In this document: one piece after another, positions 17,189-18,020 of the stretch
Position numbering within the stretch: the stretch's first letter is position 1
How the letters are laid out: the number at the start of each line of letters is the position of its first letter
Origin: a virus
IMG/VR virus record: IMGVR_UViG_3300035670_000259
Span: 1-56,186 of that record
Reading direction: 5' to 3' (one strand)
DNA length: 56,186 bases
Position numbers and translations under genes: made by a program
Notes under the pieces: generated by a model
Told to the model about the DNA's origin: nothing
What the model saw: the letters and a program-made list of their open reading frames with translations, nothing else
Databases searched by the model: none

Positions 17189-18020
17189 TATTGGGCGGTT
17201 TAGCGTCCATAAGGATAAGTGTAGTGATACACCCAAAGGCAGGATTCCTACAAACTGCCGCCAGCAATGGTTCATCTAAACAAGCCTAGACTAAGGTTGA
17301 CTCGCGCAAGCGAAAGCAACCCCCGTCCGTAGAAAGGCGGTAGGCAGTAAGTTGGTGTTGTAGTCCGAAAGGATAGACTCAGAGCCGGTCGGTGAGAGTT
17401 AAAAGGCTGTGGTGGCCAAGCTGCGACATACCAAACCAACGAATGCTGAAAGTTAATAGGTAGCTACAGAGTCTGAGCCTGCAAGCAAAGGCATGGTAGC
17501 ATCACCAAAGCAGAAGGGTTAGGCCCCAGACGCTTGAAGTGACGTTGAGTATCCCGCAAGGAGAAAGACAGGAGGTGTGTTGTATTCTGTATCTAACAAG
17601 ATATGGAGCAACTGGGGCAGCACATCTTAGTAGGTTACATCGCAAGTCTATCATAAGACAATAGTTTTGGGTACTATAAGCATCTATATACAAAAAGCGA
17701 AAGACTGTCCCGGTACGTTGTGAAAGGTGGTTAATGCCACACTCGCAAGAGAATGTGGTCTACGGATGCCCGCAAGGCTGATGTAGTTGTTCGGAAAGAT
17801 AGCGTAAGAGTTTAGCGACTCTGAACTGCTCGCAAGGCAGACGAAGGATAGAAGGACGAATAACAACGTGCGACGAGAGAACCGCCACTCTCTAAAAAAG
17901 GCACCACTGAGAGATACAGAATGACCGTAACAGGCTTCTGTGGATAATGGTAGAACCATCCTCGCAAGGGATCGGGTAATGACCAAAGGCTCTCATCCCA
18001 AGCTGTAGTCTCAGGCTGGG
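17189..18020 (+). ncRNA. Large structured RNA, GOLLD-like candidate
   Basis: About 830 nt with no credible reading frame on either strand. Hairpins with GNRA loops recur: GTGTA-GTGA-TACAC (17219-17232), TCGC-GCAA-GCGA (17301-17312), TCC-GAAA-GGA (17363-17372), CTC-GCAA-GAG near 17741, CTGC-TCGCAAG-GCAG near 17827, ATCCTCGCAAGGGAT near 17958. The 3' end closes with CCCAAGC/GGCTGGG. Size, many tetraloops, phage origin and place in a tRNA cluster fit the published GOLLD class; homology is not proven. Function of GOLLD is unknown. Confidence 0.7.

Follow-up and report, generated by a model that had tools for sequence, protein, structure and literature searches.

The virus contig analyzed here (IMG/VR record IMGVR_UViG_3300035670_000259, all 56,186 bases, hereafter the window) almost certainly encodes a full-length GOLLD RNA at 17190-18017 on the plus strand, with a cap domain on the 5′ side, a ring domain on the 3′ side and a variable linker. 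We are confident that this makes it a further member of a class that is already known, and the presence of tRNAs in GOLLD linkers is not new either, since phage tRNAs have been noted there on occasion (PMC12286853). The new part is the pattern that emerges when the linkers of the window's RNA and of its relatives are set side by side: the embedded tRNA-like elements keep the architecture of an anticodon loop while nearly always lacking the end at which a tRNA is charged, and the anticodon differs between elements whose bodies are otherwise almost the same. This pattern raises the find above routine annotation, and it makes testable the function of GOLLD, which is still unknown even with the structure of its cage solved (PMC12286853).

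The GOLLD RNA and its two domains

An earlier note on this DNA had described an ornate structured RNA of about 830 nucleotides at 17189-18020 and had suggested, from its size and setting, that it belongs to the GOLLD class. The class assignment holds. A cmscan search of the window that covered every family in Rfam 15 matches 17572-18017 on the plus strand to GOLLD (RF02032) over the whole model (1-416 of 416) at 209.3 bits and E = 8.6e-58, against a gathering cut-off of 150 bits. The relatives compared here also exceed that cut-off, and 4 loci picked up in the first pattern scan (L028, L031, L034, and L043) were excluded as not GOLLD. The ROOL and group II intron models reached threshold nowhere in the window, and in 15700-18300 they had no hit even at E values as high as 10. 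With a full-model match of this strength, no intron match at threshold and nothing found in its favor, the notion that the region is some other structured RNA or an intron is refuted.

The Rfam model spans the 3′ domain only. The 5′ domain (17190-17571, plus strand; 382 nucleotides), which corresponds to the cap domain of the solved cage, lies outside it. In an nhmmer search with 17181-17571 as the query, this domain proved to be common to 45 loci, mostly IMG/VR phage contigs plus Roseobacter-group phages, and in each it is followed by the 3′ domain. Conservation begins at about 17190 and drops sharply upstream, and the 3′ end of the RNA at 18017 is the end of the GOLLD model, giving 828 nucleotides in all and shifting the boundaries first proposed by only a few bases. 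The solved example, env-38 of Kretsch et al. (2025), has 833 nucleotides, its 5′ cap being formed by 1-420 and its 3′ ring by 421-833 (PMC12286853). Typical of the class are a 5′ domain of some 400 nucleotides that is the less conserved of the two, a total length of more than 800, and residence in a phage or prophage, often close to a tRNA island; the window's RNA agrees on each point.

Covariation, rather than folding energy, decides that the region is a structured RNA. The folding energy of the single sequence is not unusual (z = -0.79) and, being uninformative, was rejected as evidence. For the 5′ domain, RNAalifold on a 30-sequence alignment predicts 98 consensus pairs, 83 of them with changes on both sides. 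The share of paired cells is 95.3%, as against 33-40% with partners slid by 1-3 columns; this share is flattered by a structure predicted from the same alignment, but the 691 double-change cells are not explained in that way. The covariation score of 0.678 compares with 0.065-0.105 for slid partners and 0.247 for shuffled alignments, and none of 500 shuffles reaches it. In the 3′ domain, compensatory change is found in 58 of 78 consensus pairs. Covariation among related phages is thus extensive in both domains, and two of the three outcomes that the earlier note had named as speaking against its reading, an absence of covariation and a confident intron hit, did not occur when tested.

Seven GNRA loops stand on stems of at least 3 pairs, where shuffled sequences give 1.68 ± 1.31, in keeping with the six or more such hairpins counted before. 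A GAAA tetraloop at 17367-17370 (plus strand), where GTCCGAAAGGATA is near-invariant in alignment A1, is by position and sequence only a candidate for L11a, the conserved GAAA loop of the GOLLD 5′ domain (PMC12286853). In the 3′ domain, an invariant TTAGCG loop on a covarying stem is a candidate L21a loop with the self-complementary GC or CG dinucleotide (bridge B8), mapped to env-38 by model position only. The claim of a closing helix at the 3′ end did not hold: a global 5′-3′ closing helix is absent from the consensus structure, a short local hairpin forms the end of the RNA, and the long inverted repeat at 18025-18109 falls outside GOLLD. A further inverted repeat, at 17523-17618, was set aside, its pairing as drawn not being kept by relatives. 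No credible reading frame is present, as had been stated, with only three minus-strand TTG open reading frames (ORFs; 63, 69, and 100 amino acids) overlapping the region. A pattern scan for the window's GOLLD clade in one genome per bacterial or archaeal species gave no match.

tRNA-like elements in the linkers

The linker of the window's RNA (17635-17693, plus strand) lies in the 3′ domain with conserved blocks on either side, at the place where relatives carry a tRNA-like element and in a position that is the cage interior in solved GOLLD. Its minimum free energy fold contains, on the plus strand, a D-arm-like hairpin at 17646-17659 (GTCT-ATCATA-AGAC; 4 pairs and a 6-nucleotide loop) and, after a single base, an anticodon-arm-like hairpin at 17661-17677 (ATAGT-TTTGGGT-ACTAT; 5 pairs and a 7-nucleotide loop). 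The loop is of the tRNA-Pro(UGG) type, with U33, UGG, and G37, and 17646-17677 as a whole has the layout of tRNA positions 10-43. An ordinary tRNA gene is ruled out, for ARAGORN reports no tRNA in this linker at any setting, lowered thresholds included, and no T arm is present in its sequence; a seven-pair acceptor stem and a CCA are missing too. The two-hairpin unit arises in 8 of 5,000 shuffles. The same layout recurs on different stem sequences at L063 (loop ATTGGGA), L017 (TTTTGGT), L026 (TTTTGGA), and L058/L060 (TTTAGGA), each unit arising in 4-28 of 5,000 shuffles, and all five loop types have U33, U34, G36, and G37 in common. All of the carriers are GOLLD by Rfam, the Ruegeria phage DSS3P8 only just (150.7 against 150).

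Most relatives hold something closer to a whole tRNA. Linkers were collected from 93 loci (74 distinct, including three further pattern scans), and 13 more loci came later. Of the 93 linkers, 67 (53 distinct) contain a tRNA according to ARAGORN. A 3′ CCA is present in 2 of these 67 embedded tRNAs versus 811 of the 834 free tRNAs of the same loci, and all seven acceptor pairs in 4 of 67 versus 734 of 834; in the first locus set alone, the figures for CCA are 0 of 42 and 434 of 438. Of the linkers from the 13 loci added later, 10 score as tRNAs; all of these fall short of seven acceptor pairs, and a terminal CCA is confined to one distinct sequence. Because CCA and a full acceptor stem are nearly always absent, most embedded elements, in their present form, do not look chargeable. 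The public records of phages MD18 and MAL1 label the element in the GOLLD linker as an ordinary tRNA-Arg (L057, 3112-3185; L059, 3098-3173); both look like pseudo-tRNAs.

The other parts of the tRNA are kept. U33 is found in 50 of the 53 distinct embedded elements, a purine at 37 in 51 and a fully paired anticodon stem in 48, and the GG of the D loop and the TTCRA of the T loop persist as well. Lys-type (16 of 53) and Arg-type (8 of 53) elements are frequent, a tendency that is weak given the sampling of clades. Anticodon loops of 8 nucleotides occur in 8 of the 53; the linkers of L019, L047, L055, L009, L008, L065, and L085 have them, and ARAGORN reads four-base anticodons there.

The anticodon itself turns over. 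When bodies at least 95% identical with the loop removed are compared, the anticodon differs in 13 of 18 embedded pairs but in 0 of 63 free pairs, and at 90% identity or more in 34 of 52 versus 1 of 153, the free tRNAs having been sampled to 500. Related sequences inflate these pair counts, a point to be held against them, and the safer figure is that from single-linkage clusters at 95%, where the anticodon differs within 5 of 7 embedded clusters and 0 of 68 free ones. Two pairs of loci make the case concretely. L047 and L056 have 3 base differences in 915 outside the loop, yet the loop goes from ATTGATAA to ATTTTGA; L001 and L011, with 14 differences in 842 and an identical tRNA body, have the loops CTCTTAA and ATTGAAG. 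This is not simple decay, because U33, purine 37, the anticodon stem, and the D- and T-loop motifs are all kept. Anticodon turnover on a constant body is what would be expected if the loop were selected to match a changing partner, and we infer that the anticodon loop of the embedded elements is probably under selection.

A second arrangement is found at L097 (7545-8034) and at L110/L117 (4697-5183 and 5047-5533, respectively). Here the linker tRNA is circularly permuted, running from T arm through acceptor 3′ strand, CCA, a short loop, and acceptor 5′ strand to the D arm and anticodon arm. Restored to the usual order, these elements score as tRNAs with a seven-pair acceptor stem and CCA, with the anticodons GAT and CTT, and both carriers are GOLLD by Rfam. 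A literature search found no description of a permuted tRNA in GOLLD linkers, which is not proof of novelty.

A possible role for the linker, and its rivals

By analogy with the solved GOLLD structure, the RNA would be made during phage infection and its copies would assemble into a hollow cage with the linkers inside. The env-38 cage is a 14-mer RNA nanocage of 380 Å, empty but for the disordered linker at 497-538 (PMC12286853), and the window's RNA would be expected to form a cage as well. The linker would then be neither dead spacer nor ordinary tRNA gene but a tRNA mimic cut down to what presents an anticodon arm. Relatives would have kept the D arm, the T arm, and the anticodon-loop architecture and lost the chargeable acceptor end; the window's linker would have retained only the D-like and anticodon-like hairpins; and the triplet, selected to suit a partner that itself changes, would vary while the rest of the body stays constant. 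That the linker's role is to display an anticodon arm is a proposition on which our own confidence is evenly balanced. It is possible, and we suggest it tentatively, that the cages are anticodon-display devices, each subunit bearing in the interior a mostly unchargeable tRNA mimic with an anticodon under diversifying selection, in whole, permuted, or T-arm-less form but with the anticodon arm kept throughout, and that they sequester or misdirect some host factor able to read such arms, an anticodon nuclease for example. At the same low confidence, we speculate that the partner is a host reader of anticodon arms, above all an anticodon nuclease, and that the RNA is a decoy or sponge. Anticodon nucleases would fit because they read the anticodon arm, need no charged tRNA, and drive rapid change. 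Three of the phage's own genes also count in support of a decoy, one with a PNKP phosphatase domain (47118-47564), one for a P-loop kinase-like protein (47564-48112), and one for an Rnl1-like RNA ligase (48688-49848). In T4, such a set of phosphatase/kinase and RNA ligase repairs tRNA cut by the anticodon nuclease PrrC.

Several points tell against display of an anticodon arm to such a nuclease. Acceptor pairing was assessed in frames picked by ARAGORN. The intact acceptor stems and CCA of the permuted tRNAs contradict any strict rule that linker elements cannot be charged. The two-hairpin unit is absent from 5 other tRNA-less linkers (L077, L094, L096, L098, and L070) and so is not universal. 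Moreover, the diversity of anticodons and the 8-nucleotide loops appear to fit no single nuclease.

The linker could instead be a site where insertions are tolerated, in which a tRNA gene from the neighboring island landed, lost its acceptor end, and now drifts, with neutral changes of the anticodon. This would suit the observations that linkers are the least conserved part of the RNA, that some have no tRNA, and that the window's own is truncated. It sits badly with the retention of U33, purine 37, the anticodon stem, the D-loop GG, and the T-loop TTCRA while the triplet changes, with the concentration of changes in the loop in two near-identical pairs, and with the anticodon-type hairpin still kept in five lineages that lack a T arm; we regard it as rather unlikely. 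A preserved anticodon-loop architecture would also serve a linker that docks to the ribosome by bringing its anticodon into contact with a codon in the A or P site, the cages thereby trapping or parking ribosomes late in infection, and a ribosome pull-down with GOLLD has been cited and large cage contents modeled (PMC12286853). The ribosome is the next candidate after anticodon nucleases, but docking alone leaves the rapid turnover of the anticodon unexplained, and we think it unlikely to a further degree. Least plausible among the possible roles is codon supply by a working tRNA excised from the GOLLD transcript, which we would be surprised to see borne out. Many linker anticodons indeed have no second copy among the free tRNAs on their locus fragment, and the permuted versions do have an intact acceptor stem and CCA; in nearly all other linkers, however, CCA is absent and the acceptor stem broken, and the window's version has no T arm, in an island that already has a tRNA-Pro(TGG) at 15633. 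In a Mycobacterium GOLLD, moreover, the linker pseudo-tRNA is not detectably expressed (PMC6582537).

Should selection act on the linker through its anticodon loop, the function of GOLLD could be tested in phage isolates that share one host; the Ruegeria pomeroyi phages DSS3P8 and MAL1 hold two different linker modules. Such selection, if true, would link RNA cages to the arms race over tRNA cleavage between phages and bacteria.

Genomic setting and known systems

The tRNA island reported earlier around the RNA is real, with 31 tRNAs between 10.8 and 25.4 kb that cover all 20 amino acids and include a CTA-anticodon tRNA. Within it, the GOLLD gene is flanked by a manA RNA and tRNA-Val, and an HNH endonuclease gene follows 0.7 kb downstream. 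The manA RNA (RF01745, 16859-17065), directly upstream, scores 55.5 bits, barely above its cut-off of 55.2; the window also encodes a mannose-6-phosphate isomerase C-terminal domain (2855-3628) and a phosphomannomutase (13702-14415). The CTA-anticodon tRNA (16187-16261) is of the amber suppressor type, yet TAG is the stop codon of 7 of the 51 long ORFs. The island also encodes an alternative oxidase (11742-12344) and a pyridoxal phosphate-dependent decarboxylase of the ornithine/arginine type (19588-20715). Elsewhere in the window, the phosphatase, kinase-like, and ligase genes form a tRNA-repair-like cassette within 2.8 kb (47118-49848). A Megablast search of phage records with 24 kb of the window gave no match, and hence there is no close phage isolate.

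Immediately upstream of the RNA, a promoter-like site (TTGCTA-17 nt-TATATT, 17153-17181, plus strand) is weak, its 9 of 12 sigma-70 matches being near the chance rate. The claim that the RNA has its own promoter fares better in relatives L049 and L019, where strong TTGACA...TATAAT-type sites, read by eye, lie upstream of the same RNA start. Long hairpins at 17063-17144 and 18025-18109 flank the gene, one on each side. They have the same three-way-junction layout, with TTGTTTAT and ATCTTC in common and differing stem sequences, and neither matches an Rfam family; 3 loci elsewhere that resembled these twins were dismissed as chance matches, since they fold unlike them. In the Roseobacter-group phages L057-L060, GOLLD is followed at a short distance by a tmRNA gene of the alphaproteobacterial type; in L110/L117 such a gene lies about 3 kb downstream.

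Among known systems, env-38 is like the window's RNA in its 3′ domain, separate 5′ domain, length (833 versus 828 nucleotides), 5′-domain GAAA loop, variable linker, and phage tRNA-island setting. In contrast, the window's linker has no full tRNA and holds a two-hairpin unit without a T arm. The GOLLD of the 32-tRNA cluster of Mycobacterium strain Maub-T (PMC6582537) shares the phage-derived tRNA cluster and the HNH endonuclease gene, but its linker holds a pseudo-tRNA, whereas that of the window is not seen as a tRNA by ARAGORN. In the Ruegeria and Phaeobacter phages DSS3P8, vB_RpoS-V10, MAL1, and MD18 (L057-L060), both GOLLD domains align with those of the window. DSS3P8 and V10 have a T-arm-less linker like the window's, but with a Leu(UAG)-type loop; MAL1 and MD18, unlike the window, have an Arg(UCU) pseudo-tRNA there; and a further difference is the tmRNA gene that follows GOLLD in these four phages. 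Lastly, phages are known to counter host anticodon nucleases with free tRNAs (PMC10264068, PMC11555353). The likeness to GOLLD lies in a tRNA-related RNA of phage origin with apparent selection at the anticodon loop; those tRNAs, however, are free and chargeable and replace the cleaved ones, whereas the GOLLD linker element would be locked in the RNA of a cage and appears mostly unchargeable.
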